From contig CACFAY010000010.1 of NCBI GenBank assembly GCA_902564345.1, positions 1 through 39,697 of the forward strand: a stretch of 39,697 bases of DNA. The letters are read 5' to 3'. This document shows positions 29,584 to 39,697 of the stretch, piece by piece; the stretch's first letter is position 1; every line of letters begins with the position of its first letter. The notes under the pieces are model-generated. The model saw nothing but the letters and a program-made list of their open reading frames with translations, did no database searches and had not been told where the DNA came from. The stretch comes from an uncultured SAR324 cluster bacterium. GTDB taxonomy: Bacteria > SAR324 > NAC60-12. The translations under genes were made by a program, and so were the position numbers.

Positions 29584-30258
29584 CTATAACGCTTCGTGTT
29601 GTACCAGAAGCAAAAGCTTACCTTTTTTTATATTGACAGAAACATGATTTGATACAACAAGATTTGAAACCCCGGATGGTGTTTTACCTGGAATCAAATT
29701 TTGATTATTCAATTCATATTTAAGCCCTTTTGTAACGATTCCTTCAGCAGCTCCAAATATGGGGAGTATCGAAAGAATTGTCCCAGGTTTAATTTTTTCT
29801 TTCCAGTTTCGATTAATAAACTCCATCCGTTCTATTTGAGTCCAGGATATTAGCCGTGCATATTCAGAATATTTGAAAAGGATTTCCAGTCCTGAGAGAA
29901 ATTGGTCCTGACGACCACCATCAGCTGAAAGAAGATGAATTACTTTAAAACCGAGTTCCAAACAATGTCTAACAGCTTTGTCGGCATCATTAGTGTCTTG
30001 CTCAGGGATATGTAAAAACTTAGAATTAGGCATTTTTTCGCGAGTCTTTGAAGCAAGTGAATCGAAATCACCAATCACGGCATCTGGCATGTATTTATTT
30101 TTTGCCAGTATATTTGCGCCCCCATCCGCTGCTACATGATATGTTGTTTTTTCCCATAATTGGTAAAGTAAATCTTTTGGAGGAGGATTGCCATTACAAA
30201 CAATCAAAGCATTCTTCAGAAATTTATCTTGCTTTTGAATTCCATCAACATTTGACAT
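29584..30258 (-). CDS. thiN: Thiamine pyrophosphokinase
   Basis: A 224-residue enzyme that makes thiamine diphosphate from thiamine and ATP. ATG at 30258 is chosen over a TTG three codons upstream. It has HVAADGGANIL, AVIGDFDSL, DTNDADKAV, LSADGGRQDQFLSGLEIL, and a C-terminal SGVSNLVV in the thiamine-binding part. No TPP riboswitch is seen upstream. It is the last core-type gene before the accessory region. Confidence 0.9.
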   Translation of the reverse strand: MSNVDGIQKQDKFLKNALIVCNGNPPPKDLLYQLWEKTTYHVAADGGANILAKNKYMPDAVIGDFDSLASKTREKMPNSKFLHIPEQDTNDADKAVRHCLELGFKVIHLLSADGGRQDQFLSGLEILFKYSEYARLISWTQIERMEFINRNWKEKIKPGTILSILPIFGAAEGIVTKGLKYELNNQNLIPGKTPSGVSNLVVSNHVSVNIKKGKLLLLVQHEAL

Positions 30259-30267
30259 GGGGATCAA

Positions 30268-30687
30268 TTATTTAATTTTTTTACTATAACCCTTGAGTTT
30301 AAAAATGATCTTTATATTGGGGGCGAGTGAGGATTTTTTTAAGCATTATAGAAACTTAAAGTAATTTCGTAATTTTGAAAAGGATAGGACAAATAATTTT
30401 TAAATTATCTGAATGTCAGTTTGCATCGGGAAACATTTATATTTTACTTAAGCTAAGTTTTAACTTTTTTCAAAAACTAGATTCAGCTTCATTTACCAGA
30501 CAAACGAATGTAGAAGTGCAAAAATATAGAATTTATTTGAGATGAATAATCACCAACCAAATAATTTGAGGCTGTTCACTAGTTCTAAAACGGTTTTTAT
30601 CGCACATATATCTTTTATAATAATAGAAGTGCTATTTCTTTTATAAGAATCAATGAGGAGAACTTCTGCTATTTATTCTTTTAAAAA
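30268..30687. other. Gene-free stretch at start of accessory region
   Basis: About 420 bp of AT-rich DNA between thiN and the Ser-rich lipoprotein's terminator. I see no coding frame, RNA fold or repeat in it. Base composition and gene content change from here rightward. Confidence 0.4.
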
Positions 30688-30709
30688 TTAATCAAATAAG
30701 ATTGATTAA
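30688..30709 (-). terminator. AT-only stem-loop after the Ser-rich lipoprotein gene
   Basis: TTAATCAA/TTGATTAA (8-bp stem, 6-base loop) followed on the minus strand by five T lies 36 bp after the lipoprotein stop. The stem is weak, being nearly all A-T. Confidence 0.4.
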
Positions 30710-30868
30710 AAAAAATCTAAAAACTCCCCATTAATTCTTTTGACTTATTCTATGAATGTCATTGAGCTGCTGGCACTGGACCAATCAGAGGGATACCCAG
30801 AAGTAGATTCCTCCCAAATCACAGTTTGGCCGTAACTCGAAGTGTTGTCAGTATACGCAAGTCCGTAA
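30703..30868 (+). repeat. 165-bp direct repeat, copy 1 (3' end of lipoprotein gene)
   Basis: This 166-bp segment, spanning the last 41 codons of the lipoprotein gene plus about 40 bp downstream, recurs at 34972-35136 in the same orientation with about 90 percent identity judged by eye. Both begin GATTAAAAAAA and end CAAGTCCGTAA. Confidence 0.9.
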
Positions 30869-31524
30869 TATGTAACTGGTGAAGATACCGCACAACTATA
30901 TGAAGTGCCAACTACAGGATCGGTGCCTGATAGAAAGGTTTTTAACCATGTAGCACCGGCATCTGTCGAAGCCTTAACCCCAATACAAGAATACTCATAG
31001 CTTACCTTTGTAGCGGTCGATGAGTATGTACTACTTGAACCGCTTACAGATGTTGACAGTCCAGACACATTATCTCCAACAGTTAAACCTGTGAAACCAG
31101 CTGTAAAAGAAGCTACTTCAGTTGAACATGAAGTATCAGAGTAAAATTTAATGATTTGTGCATATGAAGAACTTGAAGTTATAGGATAATTAATAATAAC
31201 CCCTAATGCATCGGTAGGTTGTCCAATAGAAGCTGCAAAAGAAGAAATCAGAGTAGAATTATCGATACAGTCTGTTGAATTATCTACACCATATCCTCCT
31301 TGAATACCGAACAAGTGAAAAGTACTCATGGTACCTGAAATACTCATATTGTCTATTCCAGTAATAGTTCCTGAAGCAGTTGAGCTACAGGAAGTTACTT
31401 CAGTTAGTGCTGAAGACCCAGCGCAACCTGATGTTGAAGTTGAAGAAGAATCATCGGACGAGCAGGCCCCAAAAAATGAAATAATTCCTATAATCAGAGT
31501 TAAAAAAATAAGTGCTTTATTCAT
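30745..31524 (-). CDS. Ser/Thr-rich lipoprotein of unknown function
   Basis: A 259-residue protein. The signal peptide (MNKALIFLTLIIGIISFFGAC) ends at Cys21 in FFGAC, then SSDDSSSTSTSG is a flexible linker. The rest is Ser/Thr/Gly-rich with paired cysteines (CAGS, TSCS, STDCID, TSCSTE, SYEYSCIG, SYSCAV) and no family I recognise. GAGGAC precedes the ATG. Its 3' end is duplicated at 34972-35136. The composition resembles the Asp-box lipoproteins further right, though the folds seem different. Confidence 0.65.
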   Translation of the reverse strand: MNKALIFLTLIIGIISFFGACSSDDSSSTSTSGCAGSSALTEVTSCSSTASGTITGIDNMSISGTMSTFHLFGIQGGYGVDNSTDCIDNSTLISSFAASIGQPTDALGVIINYPITSSSSYAQIIKFYSDTSCSTEVASFTAGFTGLTVGDNVSGLSTSVSGSSSTYSSTATKVSYEYSCIGVKASTDAGATWLKTFLSGTDPVVGTSYSCAVSSPVTYYGLAYTDNTSSYGQTVIWEESTSGYPSDWSSASSSMTFIE

Positions 31525-31819
31525 ATGTCCTCATTAAGATTAATTTTTTTTCGATTGAACAATTTTTTGGTTTGACAGGAAAAAATTTCTGACTCTATCA
31601 GTAAAAATAATAAGGGGCAGTCCATACTTACTAATGTTGTACCCCTTACTCACACTATATCTAATTGTAATCACTTGATAAAAAGTCGTTCTACCCCCGA
31701 AGGTTAGACTTCGTATCTCAGGGAAAAGTGTGATTAATGTGAGGTAAATCTGCAAGTAAAAAATGAGATTTCATTCGCATTATTAGCAATTTAGGTTAAA
31801 TATCCAAACATCCAAAAGA

Positions 31820-31900
31820 TTACAGAATGTAATAAAACATAATAAAATCCATTACAACCAAAAATCCAATTACAATTATAATAGTTTTTCTATTTCTCAT
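31820..31900 (-). CDS. 26-residue single-helix membrane microprotein (copy 1)
   Basis: MRNRKTIIIVIG... then a hydrophobic stretch to YYIL: a basic N-terminus and one transmembrane helix. It matches the copy at 39015-39095 end to end with no gap. Ten of 26 codons differ: four silently (Thr6, Ile7, Ile8, Ile9) and six conservatively (R/K twice, V/I, D/E, F/L, M/L). That pattern indicates selection on the peptide. ATG lies one base after the stop of the 45-residue frame, suggesting translational coupling. Function unknown; small helical peptides may be toxins or regulators. Confidence 0.6.
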   Translation of the reverse strand: MRNRKTIIIVIGFLVVMDFIMFYYIL

Positions 31901-31901
31901 T

Positions 31902-32039
31902 TTAAAAACCAACGAAATACCAATAAATAATCAAACCGCCAAAAATCACTCCTTTAACGAATGCTATATAAGCAGAAATAAATGGATTTGTTCTTATAAA
32001 ATTTTTTCTCCATTTCCAAAACGATTTAATTGTTTCCAT
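31902..32039 (-). CDS. 45-residue small membrane protein
   Basis: It begins METIKSFWKWRKNFIRTNPF, a Trp/Lys/Arg-rich amphipathic start, followed by one hydrophobic segment (AYIAFVKGVIFGGLIIYWYF) and ends VGF. ATG 32039 is preceded by an A-rich tract (AAGAAAAAA) but no clear Shine-Dalgarno. It occupies the cargo slot between the integrase stub and the 26-residue microprotein; in the right element that slot holds a 101-residue basic protein instead. Not recognised. Confidence 0.45.
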   Translation of the reverse strand: METIKSFWKWRKNFIRTNPFISAYIAFVKGVIFGGLIIYWYFVGF

Positions 32040-32194
32040 TTTTTTCTTATAACTTTGGTCACAAAATTAAAACAAATACATTTTAAGGAAATTCTAAATT
32101 CTTTGAGCTGTCCAAAATGTTCAATCAAGTTTGTTGTTATTATCCTTGTGTAATAATAAGTGTTACCAGAATTTGGGAAAGTTATCAAACTCAT
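31994..32194 (-). pseudogene. Tyrosine integrase N-terminal stub (left)
   Basis: The first 39 residues, MSLITFPNSGNTYYYTR..., then LIEHFGQLKEFRISLKC, match the short arm-binding N-terminal domain of tyrosine recombinases (YYxRRxxPxDL..G..E.R.SLK pattern). After residue 39 the frame diverges and stops. The core-binding and catalytic domains (R..K..HxxR..Y) are absent. Compare 38498-38656. Confidence 0.6.
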
Positions 32195-32395
32195 AAAAAG
32201 ATTAAATTTCTATCACAAAAATCACTATTTGTTGGATATTTGGATATCATAGACACGAAATCTCAGCAACAAACTGTTATTAAAAGTGTGATTAAAATGA
32301 ACCTTTAGGACTCTAAGGGTGGAGACGAACCAATCTATAACTATTTTATTATAATGATTACAGTTAGTTAAGAGGAAAGGTAGTGGAGACGAGGG

Positions 32396-32612
32396 GAGGT
32401 TGAACCCCTCACTCATATCTCCCACCTTACATAGCAGACAACCTACTGGAATTATTGGATAAAAATTGAATCTTACCGGCAGGTGAAACTTCGTGTTACT
32501 TAATATAAACAGTAAATAGTTGACAAATAATTAACATTTTTATAGTTTATTTTTTCGTAAAAAATTTATTTTGAACTTTTTTTCTAAAAGATTAATCAGT
32601 ACTAAATGTTTT
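32396..32612. other. Gene-free stretch inside the inverted pair
   Basis: Just right of the left att-like site. The hairpin GAGGGGTTCAACCTCCCCTC (32390-32410, complement) resembles a T-arm with one extra loop base. No coding frame is seen beyond it up to the leader of the first Asp-box gene. Confidence 0.4.
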
Positions 32613-32742
32613 ATATTATTACTTATATAGAAACTGTTAGGAAGTTTAACATTTAGTTTTTGTTCTTATGTTGGATTGAATAGCTTTAATTTGAGACTTA
32701 TTATTCCTACTTCTTCAAAATTTTCTATATAAGTAATAATAT
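32613..32742 (+). promoter_or_regulatory. Inverted-repeat leader of first Asp-box lipoprotein gene
   Basis: A perfect 21-bp inverted repeat: the left arm at 32613-32633 (ends TTATATAGAAA) and the right arm at 32722-32742 (starts TTTCTATATAA) enclose 88 bp, and the right arm runs into the ATG at 32741. The enclosed stretch is related to that of the next paralog. It may be an RNA structure hiding the start codon or an invertible promoter segment. Confidence 0.6.
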
Positions 32743-33393
32743 GAAAAGTTTCTTGTCTTGGTTTGTCCTAATAGTCAGTATTGCATTAATTGTTTCATCA
32801 TGTGCTGACGATAGTTCTTCAAGTTCTTCTCCAAGTACTTCATCTTCTGAAGATTCCTCTGACAGTACTTCTGAAGATTCATCTGATAGTTCTTCCTCCT
32901 CCTCCTCAACGGGTTCAGGAGTATTCGTGGCAGTAGGTGCTTTAGGAAACATCGTGAGATCAACAGACAATGGATCATCTTTTTATAATGTAACTTATCC
33001 AACAGGAAATTTACTCTATGAAGTCGCATACGGAAACAATACATTTGTGGCAGTAGTAATTCAGGAAACATAGTTAGATCTAAGGACAATGGTTCATCTT
33101 TTGATAATGTGACCTCTCCTACTGGAACTTCTTTCATTGGAGTAGGATTCGGAAACAATACATTTGTGGCAGTAGGTGATTCAGGAAACATAGTTAGATC
33201 TACGGATAATGGATCCACGTGGGATAATGCAACTTCTCGAACAGGAAATTATTTCAGAGGATTAGGATTCGGAAACAATACATTTGTGGCAAGTGGTGAA
33301 TCAGGAAACATCGTGATATCAACTGATAATGGAACAACTTGGGATAATGTGACTTCTCCAACTGGAAATGTTTTCTGGGGTGTCGGATTCTAA
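32741..33393 (+). pseudogene. Asp-box repeat lipoprotein, frameshifted
   Basis: The signal peptide ends VSSC with Cys21, followed by an Asp/Ser linker, then four 40-residue (120-bp) repeats of type FVAVGxSGNIVRSTDNGSTWDN. S-x-D-x-G-x-T-W is the Asp-box of BNR/sialidase-like beta-propellers. One base is missing in repeat 2 near 33056 (GCAGTAGTAATTCAGG against GCAGTAGGTGATTCAGG in repeat 3), so the first frame stops at 33073 and the second resumes to 33393. Four blades are too few for a normal propeller. It may be a true pseudogene, a sequencing error or a slippage switch. Confidence 0.75.
32926..33390 (+). repeat. Four tandem 120-bp units
   Basis: Units start near 32926, 33046, 33165 and 33285. 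Each encodes one Asp-box blade, and neighbours are highly similar (for example ACATTTGTGGCAGTAG, GGATTCGGAAACAAT), so copy number could change by recombination. The last unit ends where the shared GGAAACAAT would begin, replaced by a stop. Confidence 0.85.
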
Positions 33394-33796
33394 TAATAAT
33401 CATTAACCTAAAAGAAATTTGAATTAGATCAAAGAATTATCCATTCGAAACAAAAACTAAAACGGGCAGTCACATGTTCAGTTTCAAATAATGATTCAAG
33501 TAATAGTGTGGCTGTATTTGTATACCAACAATAAAATATTTCTTACTTGAAAAGAATTGTATGAAAAATCTGAGAGCCTTTTATATATAGCGTTAACAGA
33601 TCTTACCCACCTTCAATTTCTTTTCAGTATTGCAAATATCTTATAAATGGCGATCAAAAATATTGCAATCATGAGAATCATTATGTAATTTTTACTTTGA
33701 ATGATGAAACTATAACTATAATTTGAGTTTATTTTATGGTAATGAAAGCAAAATTTAGAGATGGATAAAAAAGTTTTTTCAGGATTACTATTTGTT
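33394..33796. other. Gap between Asp-box paralogs
   Basis: About 400 bp. A 48-codon open stretch without a start codon ends near 33728 (includes YCKYLINGDQKYCNHENHY). It has a coding look but no family I know, and may be another gene fragment. Nothing else seen. Confidence 0.35.
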
Positions 33797-33905
33797 TTAG
33801 AAACTGTTGGGAAGATTAGTATTTAGTTGTTGTACGTTTATTTGTTGGATAGAAAAGTCTTAATTTGCGACTTTTTAGTTATTACTTCCTCATCATTTTC
33901 TAAAA
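33795..33905 (+). promoter_or_regulatory. Inverted-repeat leader of second Asp-box lipoprotein gene
   Basis: TTTTAGAAA (33795-33803) and TTTCTAAAA (33897-33905) bracket a segment related to 32634-32721. Compared with copy 1, the arm changed TATATAG to TTTTAG on the left and CTATATA to CTAAAA on the right, so pairing was kept. The ATG follows at 33913. Confidence 0.55.
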
Positions 33906-33912
33906 TAATAAT

Positions 33913-34968
33913 ATGAAACGAATATCCTATTGGCTCTTGCTGTTATTTAGTATTATATTAGTGCTCTCCTCATGCTCAGAAATTGAGGAAGATGCAACTG
34001 ATAACTCCACCACTACCACTACCACTACTTCTCACGATTCTACAGATAATTCCAGCAGCAGTACTGATAATTCCTCCGGATTATTTATTGCGGTTGGAGC
34101 CTCAGGTACATTACTAACTTCATCAGATGGGACAACATGGACTTCGCAAACTACCGTAACATCAAACAACCTAAGATCAGTCGCCTATGACGGAAGTAGT
34201 ACATTAGTGGCAGTGGGTTATTCTGGTACAATTATAACTTCTTCTGACGGAACAACATGGACTTCTAGGACTTCTGGAACTACCAATGATATTAATAATG
34301 TTTCATATGATTCTTCATCTGGAACCTTCGCTGCCGTAGGTGACAATGGAACTCTTCTAACCTCATCGGATGGGTCAACTTGGACTGATAAAACTTCTGG
34401 TTGTGGAATGATAGAAAATATTTGGGATATTGATTTATCTAATTCTAGTATCGGAGTAGCAGTAGGAGATAATGGTTCTATTTACACATCTGCAGACAAT
34501 GGAGACTCCTGCACAACCAGGACTTCAGGAAAAACAGTAGAATTCAATGAACTATACTATGGTAATAGTACTTTTGTAGCGCTTGGTGACAATGGTACCA
34601 TATTATCATCAACAGATGGAATAACTTGGACTGCTCGAACCTCTGGTACTACAGATAGTCTATATTCAGGTACCTACGGAAACAGTAATTATGTAGCAGT
34701 TGGTGCGTGGGGAAATCTTCTAACAGCTTCTGATGCAACTTCCACTTGGACTTCTAACAGAACCTACACACAAGATGCAACCTCTACAACCAGTGTTAAT
34801 ACTCATTTATACGGAATTGCATATGGTAATAGTATATGGGTAATGGTTGGACAAAATGGTAACATTTATAATACAAGTGATGGAACTATTTCAACTTCAA
34901 TGGTCGTTACTTCAAGGACTTCTGGAACAACAGAAAATTTAAGGAGAGTGTTCTACATAGATTTATAA
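33913..34968 (+). CDS. Asp-box (BNR-like) beta-propeller lipoprotein
   Basis: A 351-residue protein with a signal peptide ending LSSC at Cys21, a Thr/Ser/Asp linker containing a Thr run (codons ACC/ACT repeated), then seven Asp-box-like units: SSDGTTWTSQ, SSDGTTWTSR, SSDGSTWTDK, SADNGDSCTTR, STDGITWTAR, ASDATSTWTS, TSDGTISTS. Seven blades of about 40 residues would close a propeller, similar in form to Ycf48/HCF136-like and sialidase-fold proteins. No catalytic residues for glycosidase activity can be picked. A cell-surface binding role is inferred from the lipobox. It is paralogous to the frameshifted gene upstream. Confidence 0.75.
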   Translation: MKRISYWLLLLFSIILVLSSCSEIEEDATDNSTTTTTTTSHDSTDNSSSSTDNSSGLFIAVGASGTLLTSSDGTTWTSQTTVTSNNLRSVAYDGSSTLVAVGYSGTIITSSDGTTWTSRTSGTTNDINNVSYDSSSGTFAAVGDNGTLLTSSDGSTWTDKTSGCGMIENIWDIDLSNSSIGVAVGDNGSIYTSADNGDSCTTRTSGKTVEFNELYYGNSTFVALGDNGTILSSTDGITWTARTSGTTDSLYSGTYGNSNYVAVGAWGNLLTASDATSTWTSNRTYTQDATSTTSVNTHLYGIAYGNSIWVMVGQNGNIYNTSDGTISTSMVVTSRTSGTTENLRRVFYIDL

Positions 34969-34971
34969 TTC

Positions 34972-35136
34972 TGATTAAAAAAATCTAAAAACTCCCCATT
35001 AATTTTTTTGATTTATTCTAGGAATGTCATTTAACTGTTGGTACTGGACCAATCAGAGGGATACCCAGAGGTAGATTCCTCCCAAATCACAGTTTCGCCG
35101 TAACCCGAAGTGTTGTCAGTATACACAAGTCCGTAA
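34972..35136 (-). pseudogene. 165-bp fragment: duplicated 3' end of Ser-rich lipoprotein gene
   Basis: Second copy of 30703-30868, same orientation. On the minus strand it encodes a piece ending WEESTSGYPSDWSS and then stops early (TAA in place of the normal seven last codons). It has no start. After its end comes AGACTTCTGGAACAACA, a scrap also found in the Asp-box gene at 34917-34932, so the junction is mosaic. Confidence 0.85.
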
Positions 35137-35434
35137 AAAGACTTCTGGAACAACACTCCCTTTATATGGGTTAATCCATACAGAATAATTCTAATAAAAA
35201 CCAACCCTATATCATCCCCTGTAAGTAACTCCCACTTAATTCTTAACAGTCAGACAATCAACACAAAAATTATTCACGATTGGACATCCGTCTATTCGTG
35301 TGCGGATTTCTTGCTCTATAAGGATTCTCTTAAATCTTCTGGAATTTGAATTCTTAGAAACTTCATTTTTGGTGATTATAATCCATATTGACGGGAAATA
35401 TAGGATTACTTACTCCGGCAAATGTATATTATAA
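35137..35434. other. Mosaic non-coding stretch
   Basis: About 300 bp. It holds the Asp-box scrap at its left end and a 55-codon open stretch on the minus strand without a start codon (includes GCPIVNNFCVDC). Neither is assignable. Confidence 0.35.
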
Positions 35435-35872
35435 CTAGGATGATTTGGAATGCGATTGTGCGATTCTAATCAATCGTTTCAAAACTGAAGTTGCTACATG
35501 AGATAATTGAATATTTTTTATTTTTTCCAAATTATGAAAATCATTACCAACGATAATTAGACCTAACATGCCCATGTTTCTATGCGGAGTACAACCGTAT
35601 AAATAAACTCCAGGAACTTTAAAAATGACTGAGTGAAACTTGTCTATTTCCGATTTTGTTGGGAGAGAGTTTATTTTGGGACCTGCAAGAAACTCCACAT
35701 TATGGCCCTCGTTTTTCGGCAACCATTCTATAGTGTCTCCAATATCGATATGCGCAACTTCAATGCTATATGAGTCATCTTCTGTAAACTTAATTTTAAT
35801 AGTTTCTGCTGGAGAAACTTTTGAAATTATTAAAAATATAACAATAGAAAATAATGTTGGTAAGATGCGCAT
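35435..35872 (-). CDS. Pseudoazurin-like cupredoxin
   Basis: A 145-residue protein with a signal peptide (MRILPTLFSIVIFLIISKVSPA) and a blue-copper fold. The ligands are visible: His in EGHNVEF, then Cys, His and Met in YLYGCTPHRNMGMLG, the pseudoazurin pattern. IKIKFTEDDSYSIEVAHIDIGDTIEWLP forms the first strands, and a C-terminal helical pair (QLSHVATSVLKRLIRIAQ) is as in pseudoazurins. Such proteins carry electrons in the periplasm, often to nitrite or nitrous-oxide reductase, but no reductase is in the window, so the partner is unknown. It is surrounded by gene fragments. Confidence 0.85.
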   Translation of the reverse strand: MRILPTLFSIVIFLIISKVSPAETIKIKFTEDDSYSIEVAHIDIGDTIEWLPKNEGHNVEFLAGPKINSLPTKSEIDKFHSVIFKVPGVYLYGCTPHRNMGMLGLIIVGNDFHNLEKIKNIQLSHVATSVLKRLIRIAQSHSKSS

Positions 35873-35930
35873 GTTTTAGGACTATGAAGTTAGAAGTTAA
35901 CCCTTAAAAATAATTGATTTACCGTCTGAA

Positions 35931-36050
35931 TTAGAAGTGCCAACCAAATTTATATCCTATTCCTCCTGTTGCAGATCCTACATTTGCTGTAGTCTCGTCA
36001 GATGTTTTGATAGCTTTTGATCTTAGCAATATATAAGAAATACTTCTCAT
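35931..36050 (-). pseudogene. Outer-membrane protein C-terminal fragment
   Basis: A short frame (39 residues) whose end, ATGGIGYKFGWHF, looks like the last strand of a beta-barrel with terminal Phe. No signal peptide or body of the protein is present; an in-frame ATG at 36050 is probably internal. Taken as the 3' remnant of a lost gene. Confidence 0.45.
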
Positions 36051-36594
36051 ATATATACATAAACCATCTCAAATCATGCTGTTAAACTTCAGATACACGA
36101 TGATAGATCAGTCGCGTTGTATATAGGCCAATTCTAAAAGAATACTATAAATCATTTAAACATTTGATTGAACAAACCTGTCCAAGTAAAGGAAAAGTTA
36201 ATCAAAAATTACCTAAAACATCCAGTTATTTGCTGCCTATTTCAAGGGATGATGTAAAAGATGAAGATCAAACCTTATTATTTAGATTATGTTTGAACCT
36301 GACTCAAACACTTTTTTGTGATAAGGTCTATTGAAACTTTAAAGTTTTATATCTCGTTTCAGTATGTCGCAGGTAGAAAAAATTAATTTTTTACAGAAAT
36401 ATTATTATGTTTAGTAAGAAAAAAATAGGGTTACTTATAATATCAATTATAATGAATTTAATAAAAAATATAATATTATCTCAAATAAAATTAGCGCAAT
36501 TTATTTTAGATACCCTAATTAGATTTGGATATGCTCATGCATCAAACATTATGCTTGGACATTTCAGTGCGTATCTAGCAAATTATACAAATAA
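36051..36594. other. Fragment-rich stretch before the phnE remnant
   Basis: A startless open frame near 36125-36333 on the plus strand (contains LIEQTCPSKGKVNQK) and a 73-codon frame at 36407-36628 that overlaps the phnE remnant in another frame. I cannot assign either. It likely contains degraded sequence of an older gene. Confidence 0.35.
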
Positions 36595-37188
36595 TATGTC
36601 GTTGAAACAATACAAATGGCTTATCTAGCTACATTATTCGGACTTCTTATGACATTACCTCTTGGCTGGTTTGGATCCTACAACCTTACACCATCCAGAC
36701 GTTTCATTTTTCCAATTGCCCGACTTATAACCATGGGTTTTCGTGCTGTACATGAGATGATCTGGGCAATAATTTTTGTGTCCATTCTTGGCTTCGGTAT
36801 GTTACCAGGTGTAATCGCACTGACATTTTTTTGCACTGGTTTTGCGAGCAAACTTTTGGCTGAAGAAATAGAAGTTATAGATATGGGTCAAGTTGAAGCC
36901 ATTCGATCCACTGGAGCAAACCTTTTTCAAGTTATGGTTTATGGTGTATTCCCTCAGATTCGAGTAGCATTTACAGGAATTGCGATATATACCTGGGATG
37001 TTGCATTCCGTGCAGCAACAGTAGTGGGTTTCTTTGGTGCTGGGGGGATGGGATGGTACTTAAAACGGAATGTCCTTCAAATTGAAACAGAAAGAGTTGC
37101 TGCTATATTATTTTCAATAATAATTTTAGTACTAATTTCGGAAATTATTTCTGCAATGACGAGGAGCCGTGTGATGAAAATGAAATAA
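36595..37188 (+). pseudogene. phnE: Phosphonate ABC transporter permease PhnE, 5'-truncated
   Basis: The frame is open from just after a TAA at 36592-36594 and carries the C-terminal two thirds of a PhnE-type permease: VVETIQMAYLATLFGLLMTL, RAVHEMIWAIIFVSILGFGMLPGV, IDMGQVEAIRSTGA (EAA loop contacting the ATPase), FTGIAIYTWDVAFRAATVVGFFGAGGMGWYL. The usual first transmembrane part and start are missing. The ATG at 36616 would give 190 residues, but a permease without its first helix is unlikely to work. No phnC or phnD is near. Confidence 0.8.
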
Positions 37189-37260
37189 GCAATAACTATT
37201 AATTAGCATAGAAAATAATCTCTAAGATAGTATTTAATTAAATAGGATTTAATATAACTG

Positions 37261-37374
37261 ACTAAAAAACCTGTAGTTTTAGTTTGTATCGATGAAGGCA
37301 ACCCAGAATATATAAATAAAGTTTTTGAGGATTGCATTATTCCAAACATCAAAGCTTTCAAAAAAGGTTCTTAA
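37261..37374 (+). pseudogene. phnA: Phosphonoacetate hydrolase N-terminal fragment
   Basis: TKKPVVLVCIDEGNPEYINK and then IIPNIKAFKKGS, ending at TAA. This resembles the first 35-40 residues of phosphonoacetate hydrolase and related alkaline-phosphatase-superfamily enzymes, including the metal-ligand Asp in VLVCID. The codon where ATG would stand is CTG. It lies 72 bp after the phnE remnant, consistent with one former phosphonate-use operon. Confidence 0.6.
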
Positions 37375-37396
37375 AGTATTCTCAAAAAAATAATTT

Positions 37397-38266
37397 GTGT
37401 CCTTACCCGTTCTTTTCCTAGTAATATTTTCAGCTTTATTGCATCCAGTTAGAGTATTTCTCATAAAGGGCGACAATACCCCAGAGGGATTAACTCTTTC
37501 AGTAGTTATTATTTTTGGATTCATGTCATTTTTTCAAATTATTTTAATGGGTATTAACCCTTGGAAAGTATTTGAAATATGGCCTCTGATTGTAATTTCA
37601 AGCGTGGGATTATTGCTTCATTTTTGGTGCATTGTAAAATCTTTGCGTGTTGGAGATTTCTCAGTTAATTATCCTATCATTCGTTCTTCACCTATGTTTG
37701 TAGTTATAGCTGGTTATATATTCTTAAATCATCATTATTCATTAGAAATTTTGTTGGGGATAGCAATTGTAATTATTAGCGCATTCATGATTCAGTATAC
37801 GCCAGGAGGAAAGTATTTTAGCAAACCTTCTTCTATATTACTTGCTATTTTAGCAATGTGTTTTCATGGAATTATAACTTTGGCAGATGCAGAAGCAATG
37901 AAATACGTAGAGCCAGCGGCATTTTTATTTATTCAATATCTCTTTGTCACTCCAGCTATGGCAATAATTTTTATTTTGACGCGACCTTCAGGTAAAAATA
38001 TTTACGAATATTTATTCTTAGGATGGCAAAAAAAACCATTACGATTCTTTTTAGCAGGGTTTACTGCTTATATTTCTTATTTATTGATACTTTATTCCTT
38101 TAGGATGGGGGCAAATGTTGCTGCAGTGAGTTCTATTAGGCAGATATCCATCCCATTCTCAGTTCTAATAGGAGGGTTTTATTTAATGGAAAAACAAATG
38201 AATTACCGTTTATTCTGGTCTATTCTTTTAACATTAGGCGTAATTATAATTATATTATCGTCTTAA
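37397..38266 (+). CDS. EamA/DMT-type transporter
   Basis: A 289-residue protein with about ten predicted helices in two repeats. The start is GTG at 37397 (MSLPVLFLVIFSALLHPVRV), right after an in-frame stop, with no good ribosome binding site. GDFSVNYPIIRSSPMFVVIAG ends the first half and GANVAAVSSIRQISIPFSVLIGG the second, a pattern of EamA proteins. Substrate unknown; exporters of amino acids or metabolites are common. It appears intact among remnants. Confidence 0.8.
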   Translation: MSLPVLFLVIFSALLHPVRVFLIKGDNTPEGLTLSVVIIFGFMSFFQIILMGINPWKVFEIWPLIVISSVGLLLHFWCIVKSLRVGDFSVNYPIIRSSPMFVVIAGYIFLNHHYSLEILLGIAIVIISAFMIQYTPGGKYFSKPSSILLAILAMCFHGIITLADAEAMKYVEPAAFLFIQYLFVTPAMAIIFILTRPSGKNIYEYLFLGWQKKPLRFFLAGFTAYISYLLILYSFRMGANVAAVSSIRQISIPFSVLIGGFYLMEKQMNYRLFWSILLTLGVIIIILSS

Positions 38267-38308
38267 TCTAATAACTAAATTGGTAAATATTATATTAAGT
38301 TGCTCAAT

Positions 38309-38323
38309 CCCTCGTCTCCACCA
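38309..38323 (+). other. att-like site, left end of right element
   Basis: CCCTCGTCTCCACCA; reads as T-stem 3' strand, acceptor CGTCTCC, discriminator A and CCA. Direct repeat of 39301-39315, and one mismatch to the complement of 32381-32395. Confidence 0.65.
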
Positions 38324-38497
38324 CTTTACCTTGTAACTACCTGTAATCATTCAAATAAAATAGTTGTGGGTGGGTGTGTCTCCACCCTTCCCTGTCTGAA
38401 GGTTCATTTTAATCACACTTTGTTGGTGAGATTTCGTGACTAGGATATCCAAATATCCAACAAATAGTGATTTTTGTGATGGAAATTGAATCCAATT

Positions 38498-38656
38498 ATG
38501 AGTTTGTTAATCGTACCCAAATCTGGTAATGCTTACTACTTCAGAAGAAAGATACCAACAGACTTGATTGAAAATTTTGGAGGAGTAAAAGAGTTTAGAA
38601 TTTCCCTCAAGTGTGCGATCAAATCACGTTCAATTAGAACCAGTAAAATATTTTAA
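38498..38656 (+). pseudogene. Tyrosine integrase N-terminal stub (right)
   Basis: A 52-residue frame that begins MSLLIVPKSGNAYYFRRKIP and continues DLIENFGGVKEFRISLKCAI to a TAA. It matches the left stub and the N-terminal arm-binding domain of integrases. It ends where the core-binding domain should begin. As both copies keep this part, it may persist as a DNA-binding protein rather than by chance. Confidence 0.65.
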
Positions 38657-38688
38657 AATGGATTCTTTCAGATAATTATCTACAGCTT

Positions 38689-38994
38689 ATGAAAAATAAA
38701 TCTGAACAACAACTGGAGGAGTTAAGAGCAAGAAGTAGAGAAAGATACCGAAACATGACTCCGCAACAAAGGCAGAAAAAAAATGAATATGGAAAAAGAT
38801 ATCGTCAAAAGAAGAAATTAAATAAAGAAGTTACAGAATTACTTCAATCAGTTGATAATGGTGGAACACCTTCTGTTATTACCAATAATTTGAGGAGAAT
38901 ATCTAATTTTTTAGATGTAGAAATATCCAAATCTGACAAACCAATAGATGTTATAAACAATATTAGATTGGAAAAAGGGAAAAGAGATGCATAA
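38689..38994 (+). CDS. Basic 101-residue protein, element cargo
   Basis: MKNKSEQQLEELRARSRERY, then NMTPQQRQKKNEYGKRYRQKKK, a highly basic helical segment (about residues 12-45), then a more ordinary half (SVITNNLRRISNFLDVEISK). No signal peptide. A DNA- or RNA-binding role is suggested by the Arg/Lys helix. I do not recognise the family. It occupies the slot that holds a 45-residue membrane frame in the left element. Confidence 0.55.
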   Translation: MKNKSEQQLEELRARSRERYRNMTPQQRQKKNEYGKRYRQKKKLNKEVTELLQSVDNGGTPSVITNNLRRISNFLDVEISKSDKPIDVINNIRLEKGKRDA

Positions 38995-39014
38995 GTTTTA
39001 CAGCTCCTTGGAAA

Positions 39015-39095
39015 ATGAAGAATAAAAAAACAATCATCATCGTAATTGGATTTTTGGTTATAATGGAATTAATTCTGTTTTATTACATTCTGTAA
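39015..39095 (+). CDS. 26-residue single-helix membrane microprotein (copy 2)
   Basis: MKNKKTIIIVIG..., then hydrophobic residues to YYIL. Same length as the copy at 31820-31900, with four silent and six conservative codon differences and no stop or gap. GGAAA sits directly before the ATG, closer than is ideal. It follows the 101-residue gene by 20 bp. Confidence 0.6.
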   Translation: MKNKKTIIIVIGFLVIMELILFYYIL

Positions 39096-39300
39096 TCTCT
39101 TGGATATTTGGATATTTGACCTAACCTGCTAATAATACGCAGGAAATTACTTTTTATACTTGCACATTTACCTCACATTAATCACACTTTTCCCTGAGAT
39201 ACGAAGTCTGACCTTCATGGACAGAACGACTTTTTATCAAATGATTACAGTTAGATATAGTGCGAGTAAGGGGTGCGACATGAGTAAGGGTGTTCGTCCC

Positions 39301-39315
39301 CCCTCGTCTCCACCA
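39301..39315 (+). other. att-like site, right end of right element
   Basis: Second perfect copy of CCCTCGTCTCCACCA, preceded by GTTCGTCCC. Together with 38309-38323 it forms the element's direct repeats. Confidence 0.65.
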
Positions 39316-39433
39316 TTCCCTATTATCATCTATAATATACTGATATAAATTGATTAATTTTAGTGTTACAATGTCCCAATGTCTCAAATGTAAAGGTTTA
39401 GAAGTAGTTATCTTTTCAATTTGAAATCAACTT

Positions 39434-39625
39434 TTGAATTCAAAATATCATTCAATAATTCTCCTCATAATTGCAACATCTGGGATTAGTTTTGGAGGAT
39501 TAATAATAAGAAATTTAGACTCATCAGATGCTTGGCAAGTTACTTTTTACCTTGGCTCAGGTTTTGTAATAACTTTTATATTTATTCTAATTTATAGATA
39601 TAAAAAAATTTTATTAAATCAATAA
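39434..39625 (+). pseudogene. EamA/DMT transporter N-terminal fragment
   Basis: A 63-residue frame from TTG: two hydrophobic helices with SGISFGGLIIRNLDSSDAWQ and VTFYLGSGFVITFIF, the typical first two helices of a DMT permease, then a stop after RYKKILLNQ. Beyond the stop, other frames continue with a similar look (GIFLMLKEFSLGP) past a TGA. It is therefore a broken gene unless the window edge hides a correction. Not the same subfamily as 37397-38266. Confidence 0.55.
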
Positions 39626-39697
39626 TCAATAATTCTTATTATGGATTGATATGAGGAATATTTCTAATGCTAAAAGAATTTTCCTTAGGACCTATTT

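Follow-up and report, generated by a model that had tools for sequence, protein, structure and literature searches.

The window, the whole 39,697-nt stretch analysed here, is the entire contig C10 of a 1.86-Mb, approximately 52%-complete genome from an uncultured SAR324 cluster bacterium. It carries two copies of a 26-aa open reading frame (ORF), copy 1 at 39015..39095 on the plus strand (MKNKKTIIIVIGFLVIMELILFYYIL, followed by a stop codon) and copy 2 at 31820..31900 on the minus strand (MRNRKTIIIVIGFLVVMDFIMFYYIL, likewise). Realignment bore out the sequence-only reading that the two differ at 10 codons, without gaps and only by silent or conservative changes: 11 of the 81 bases are unlike, giving four silent codons (T6, I7, I8 and I9) and six conservative replacements (K2R, K4R, I16V, E18D, L19F and L21M). 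The description of the product as a basic N-terminus plus one helix was likewise supported.

The ORFs that precede the two copies are different. Copy 1 follows a Lys/Arg-rich ORF of 101 aa (38689..38994, plus strand) after a gap of 20 nt, and a family search with this ORF gave no confident match. In its place, copy 2 has a 45-aa single-transmembrane (TM) ORF (METIKSFWKW...YFVGF; 31902..32039, minus strand), with the ATG of copy 2 lying 1 nt past its stop. The same 45-aa ORF, identical at 126/138 nt, precedes a third copy of the peptide in another genome (G009), there too with a 1-nt gap. A homologue in G005 is 51% identical and has no peptide beside it, which rules out a fixed 26+45-aa operon and indicates that the 45-aa ORF and the peptide are separate modules. 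The claim that flanking cargo had been replaced around the two copies is therefore correct upstream but not downstream, where 206 nt with no evident gene are 85.4% identical between the window copies (176/206), compared with 86.4% for the ORF itself (Fisher p=1, over 200 nt). A 5' module of approximately 320 nt is also 81-82% identical. Together, the downstream and 5' similarities show the pair to be two copies of one island type, and a comparison of these two alone gives the peptide no special standing.

At both sites in the window, the peptide ORF comes last in a segment of approximately 0.8-1.0 kb that has the 3' end of tRNA-Ala(GGC) as its boundary; the intact gene for this tRNA is on contig C28 of the same genome. 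The island with copy 1 has a duplicated att core at both ends, the integrase-side core at 38308..38323 (plus strand; the tRNA-Ala 3' end, CCCTCGTCTCCACCA) and the distal core at 39300..39315 (plus strand), from which tRNA-like similarity extends leftward to about 39266. The island with copy 2 has one good core, on the integrase side (32381..32396, minus strand), and a degraded distal core near 31600-31615. Both segments retain a truncated integrase N-terminus: 38498..38656 (plus strand) encodes 52 codons before a stop, with 39/52 residues identical to the intact integrase on C28, and 32078..32194 (minus strand) encodes approximately 39 codons before it diverges. No tRNA genes are present in the window, and the segments are thus displaced, integrase-less remnants and not resident islands. 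Although the att core resembled a tmRNA, the tmRNA was ruled out as their integration site because the real tmRNA (C21) ends differently and the tRNA-Ala(GGC) on C28 fits the att core. Separately, a decayed integrase-like N-terminus lies just past the tmRNA gene on C21 (L023 1975-2200), and the tmRNA may also have been an integration site in this genome.

Both islands contain three internal repeat pairs, arm1 inverted, arm2 direct and arm3 inverted, that look like recombinase arm sites. In the copy 1 island, arm1 (GGATATTTGGATAT) is at 38445..38458 (minus strand) and 39102..39115 (plus strand), arm2 (TTAATCACACTTTK) at 38409..38422 and 39178..39191 (both plus strand), and arm3 (TGATTACAGNTAG) at 38337..38349 (minus strand) and 39242..39254 (plus strand). 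The copy 2 island has arm1 at 32234..32247 (plus strand) and 31800..31813 (minus strand), arm2 at 32282..32295 and 31724..31737 (both minus strand), and arm3 at 32355..32367 (plus strand) and 31661..31673 (minus strand). The second arm1 repeat of each island begins 6 nt past the peptide stop. Copy 2 is also flanked by a 160-nt direct repeat, 93% identical, at 30709-30868 and 34977-35136, 4.3 kb apart. The approximately 5.9 kb between the two inverted remnants (32397-38307) encodes a BNR-repeat protein, an azurin-like copper protein, an ABC permease and an EamA transporter and has the look of accessory DNA, given that none of 51 other SAR324-class genomes contains a close homologue of the EamA gene, which adjoins copy 1. 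The two inverted remnants could have inverted or mobilised this stretch.

The window pair by itself would fit a purely DNA-level reading, namely that the DNA is kept as an island recombination end (attR side) and the reading frame is a by-product. Within the pair, the ORF is no more alike than the non-coding flank, the ORF ends just before an arm-like repeat, and copy 1 contains a 2-mismatch arm-like match of its own (39048-39061), although no such internal match occurs in copy 2 at up to two mismatches. Codon-level selection, which the sequence-only reading had claimed from these two copies, could not be upheld from them. The pair gives Sd 5, Nd 6 and a dN/dS of 0.28, but when 11 random changes were placed on the ORF in a neutral simulation, six or fewer amino acid changes resulted in 15-29% of trials (P=0.15-0.29), and 53-71% of trials were free of stops. 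Since this result is not significant, the codon argument from the window pair alone is suggestive at best.

Further copies alter this assessment. Homologues were searched for with a consensus query, then with a relative and then with a profile. The close third copy in G009 has 81% and 96% amino acid identity to the two query forms, and eight further distinct intact members fall into three clades, all from the same SAR324 genus. These more distant members come from G001, G005, G010, G014 and G016 and have the forms MRNRRTIIIIGFILVVMYAF[ST]HIEDFL[IF]LFG, MRNR[RK]TIIIIGSILVIMYLLSHLQ[DE]FL and MRTFIIIGVILFLMFLFSNFQDFL. The family totals 12 intact genomic copies, representing 11 distinct proteins. 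Seven within-clade comparisons give Sd 29 and Nd 28 on 128 and 463 sites, respectively, for an omega of 0.27; 24 amino acid changes were observed against a neutral expectation of 38-41, and 0/5000 neutral simulations were as low. Across homologues, differences at codon positions 1/2/3 number 18/7/32 (p=3e-4). Collecting homologues by protein similarity enriches for copies in which residues are conserved and so pulls dN/dS down, for which reason omega is weighed together with the flank comparison and with gene position. Between copy 2 and G009, the ORF is identical at 78/81 nt (96.3%) and the non-coding flank at 160/200 (80%; p=4e-4). The window clade is tied to the other clades by weak scores: E is 0.007-0.16 in genomes, profile scores of 15-19 bits place it just behind the true members among 2305 background micro-ORFs, and 1-7 of 3000 shuffles matched for composition reach such scores. 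Three decayed copies with a missing start or an internal stop were found (G000:C5, G014:C88 and G014:C127), and these show that the gene can be dispensed with at some sites. They agree in part with the outcome that the sequence-only reading had named as refuting it, although the dN/dS of the intact copies is well below 1.

With the homologues added, the peptide ORF proves to be a true protein-coding gene subject to purifying selection, and the search of related genomes proposed in the sequence-only reading thereby upheld the idea of a functional peptide belonging to an element family. The codon pattern mostly refutes the by-product reading. Third-position bias and low omega extend across clades, the ORF is better conserved than its flank between copy 2 and G009, and relatives lie directly behind intact integrases and are not confined to an island end; an incidental reading frame is accordingly very improbable. 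The window copies, lying in degraded integrase-less islands, may themselves be relics.

The setting of the gene is clearer in intact islands. The island integrase is a tyrosine recombinase of approximately 615 aa with DUF6538 and Phage_integrase domains (the full enzyme on C28 has approximately 620 aa). Its family is matched in 20 of 52 SAR324-class genomes, and in several loci it adjoins tRNA-Ala(GGC), SeC, Ser or Leu. The peptide of G001:C2 has its ATG overlapping the integrase stop (ATGA), and its own stop is directly succeeded by the ATG of a 103-aa ORF termed "YRRS", which has no known relative. The peptide lies 8 nt past the integrase in G014:C88 and 2 nt past the companion YRRS ORF (approximately 105 aa in the family) in G005:C4. 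Different basic TM peptides are found in equivalent positions: MKKRILILVIIITPTVCLVGF... has an ATGA overlap with the integrase in G001:C131, and MKWKLFLIIILILEGIYFLTEFLFS starts 1 nt past YRRS in G005:C4. At the G005:C4 locus with MKWKLFLIIILILEGIYFLTEFLFS (L137 1806-2108, minus strand), only the last 36-54 or so integrase residues are left, with the start of a MORN-type secreted protein fused in front of them. The companion ORF still overlaps this integrase end by ATGA and is still trailed by the TM peptide; the island end seems to be swapped as one block. These islands also contain several further recurrent families of basic, Ile-rich single-TM micro-ORFs (MSSKQTLIIIAV..., MDKRKLIIISILLF... 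and MKIKNVKILIIVMG...), with members on the minus strand at L124 5506-5649, L033 6702-6845, L125 5151-5384 and L082 7693-7806.

AT-rich DNA yields hydrophobic micro-ORFs by chance. The frequency of such ORFs behind the recombination genes was compared with that behind the other ORFs of at least 90 aa in the fetched loci, counting as coupled a TM micro-ORF with a 15-residue hydropathy above 2.3 and at least two K/R in the first 10 residues. A start at -4 to +12 nt of the stop was found for 5 of 29 integrase or companion ORFs and for 0 of 272 others (p=6e-6), in a set where some loci had been chosen for containing the peptide and peptide matches without such neighbours were fetched likewise. The empty background speaks against chance hydrophobic micro-ORFs. 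Starts so near the stop of integrase or YRRS make coupled translation probable, and this would allow peptide output to be timed and scaled with the recombination genes.

Tight coupling to the integrase and companion ORF is also what would be expected of a regulator or anchor, a peptide that tethers either protein to the membrane or modulates its activity. Against this proposal, the C28 integrase has no such peptide directly behind it, and the window remnants retain the peptide with the integrase gone. We know of no precedent for a membrane anchor of a recombinase, and this role is improbable.

The C28 locus (L061 1-5100 and L029 1-3100) contains islands in tandem at tRNA-Ala(GGC). The first, of 1.7 kb, encodes an SRA-HNH endonuclease (possibly for modification-dependent restriction), and the second encodes the intact integrase, a weak match to a Rep_1/HUH-like replication protein and a serine recombinase. 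Small single-TM proteins act in superinfection exclusion in some phages and elements, and the peptide could similarly act at the membrane to keep related islands or phages from entering or becoming established. From island to island, the slot behind the integrase or companion gene is occupied by divergent TM peptides, as a need for specificity would predict, but the tandem islands at one tRNA mean that exclusion is not complete, and no homologue was found among phages or in PHROGs. A role in exclusion is unlikely, if less so than anchoring.

Searches of databases returned little for the peptide or the companion protein. The peptide matched no profile in Pfam, NCBIfam or PHROGs and had no credible match in phage records. 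IMG/VR yielded nothing for two peptide DNA patterns or for integrase and companion-protein queries, and a viral origin was set aside on the strength of these empty queries and the lack of a credible phage match to the peptide. The companion protein had no credible match among plasmids and no Pfam relative; its sole matches among solved structures were weak ones to designed helical bundles, and its single-sequence AlphaFold model (pLDDT 49) was too poor for use. Rfam gave no match over 30000-39697, and a search of the literature turned up no account of these SAR324 islands.

The peptide could also be a type I toxin-like addiction peptide, the overproduction of which would depolarise the membrane and the mRNA of which would be silenced by an antisense RNA, making loss of the island harmful to the cell. 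In size, single helix, basic start and occurrence as several copies on mobile DNA, it recalls DinQ and TisB (PMC3567139, PMC8309996), the sequence has the short hydrophobic single-TM form of such toxins, and type I toxins may sit in polycistronic mRNAs, as is the case for yonT (PMC5848175). It would nevertheless be unusual for a tightly repressed toxin to be coupled so directly to an integrase or companion gene, and the decayed copies show that the gene can be lost. A scan of 39000-39320, which takes in the ORF and the DNA just past it, found no promoter-like site on the minus strand, though the test is weak in this unstudied phylum, sigma factors included. Addiction is a possible but minority reading.

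The evidence favours, at a probability of roughly 0.7, a more general reading in which the peptide is a translated inner-membrane accessory peptide of SAR324 tRNA-integrating islands. Islands of one SAR324 genus insert at tRNA 3' ends by means of the approximately 615-aa tyrosine recombinase, and ribosomes that have just finished the upstream integrase or YRRS gene would probably translate the microprotein. The product, of 26-31 aa, is predicted to span the inner membrane once with its Arg/Lys N-terminus inside, an Ile-rich helix and a short C-terminus outside, an N-in/C-out insertion suggested by the positive-inside rule. Its target would most likely be the host membrane or some membrane partner; it might, for instance, hold back a competing element or slow growth during island activity. 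The window remnants have lost most of the integrase while keeping both recombination ends and the microprotein. Toxin, exclusion and anchor functions are sub-cases of this accessory-peptide reading, and the confidence placed in each is not exclusive of that placed in the general one. The generic accessory peptide ranks first, followed by toxin-like and exclusion functions, with the recombinase anchor and the purely DNA-level reading last. More speculatively, and rather doubtfully at present, the position behind the recombinase or companion gene may be a dedicated, coupled slot filled by interchangeable single-helix membrane microproteins that link island activity to the host membrane through exclusion, growth control or recombinase tethering. 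If so, the integrase operons of other elements would be a place to seek hidden membrane peptides.

The 26-residue single-helix membrane peptide skipped by annotation represents a real gene family, located at the ends of SAR324 islands that integrate at tRNA genes. Codon-level and positional evidence here support a protein family below ordinary annotation length on the mobile DNA of an uncultured marine lineage, and its tie to a recombinase operon makes its function testable. By form, the closest known peptides are DinQ (PMC3567139) and the type I toxins covered by a review of how toxins act on membranes (PMC8309996). Like the DinQ/TisB/Ibs-type toxins of E. coli, which are 20-30 aa long with one hydrophobic helix and a charged N-terminus, it is of a kind often left unannotated. 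Unlike them, it matches no Pfam or NCBIfam profile, shows no sign of an antisense RNA (by the weak promoter scan) and is apparently coupled to integrase-operon genes, in contrast to the monocistronic repression of the toxins. The small size, single membrane pass and location beside mobility genes are shared with accessory membrane proteins of phages and mobile elements such as exclusion peptides and pinholins, but the SAR324 peptide has no PHROGs, Pfam or IMG/VR match and no lysis genes were seen nearby. The islands themselves resemble other tRNA-integrating islands (those with ICE/GI integrases and the tycheposons of marine bacteria) in having an integrase by a tRNA 3' end, a duplicated att core, repeats at both ends and variable cargo. 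They differ in that their integrase, with DUF6538 and Phage_integrase domains, has a companion ORF and TM microproteins behind it, and in that the window holds only remnants of approximately 1 kb away from a tRNA.
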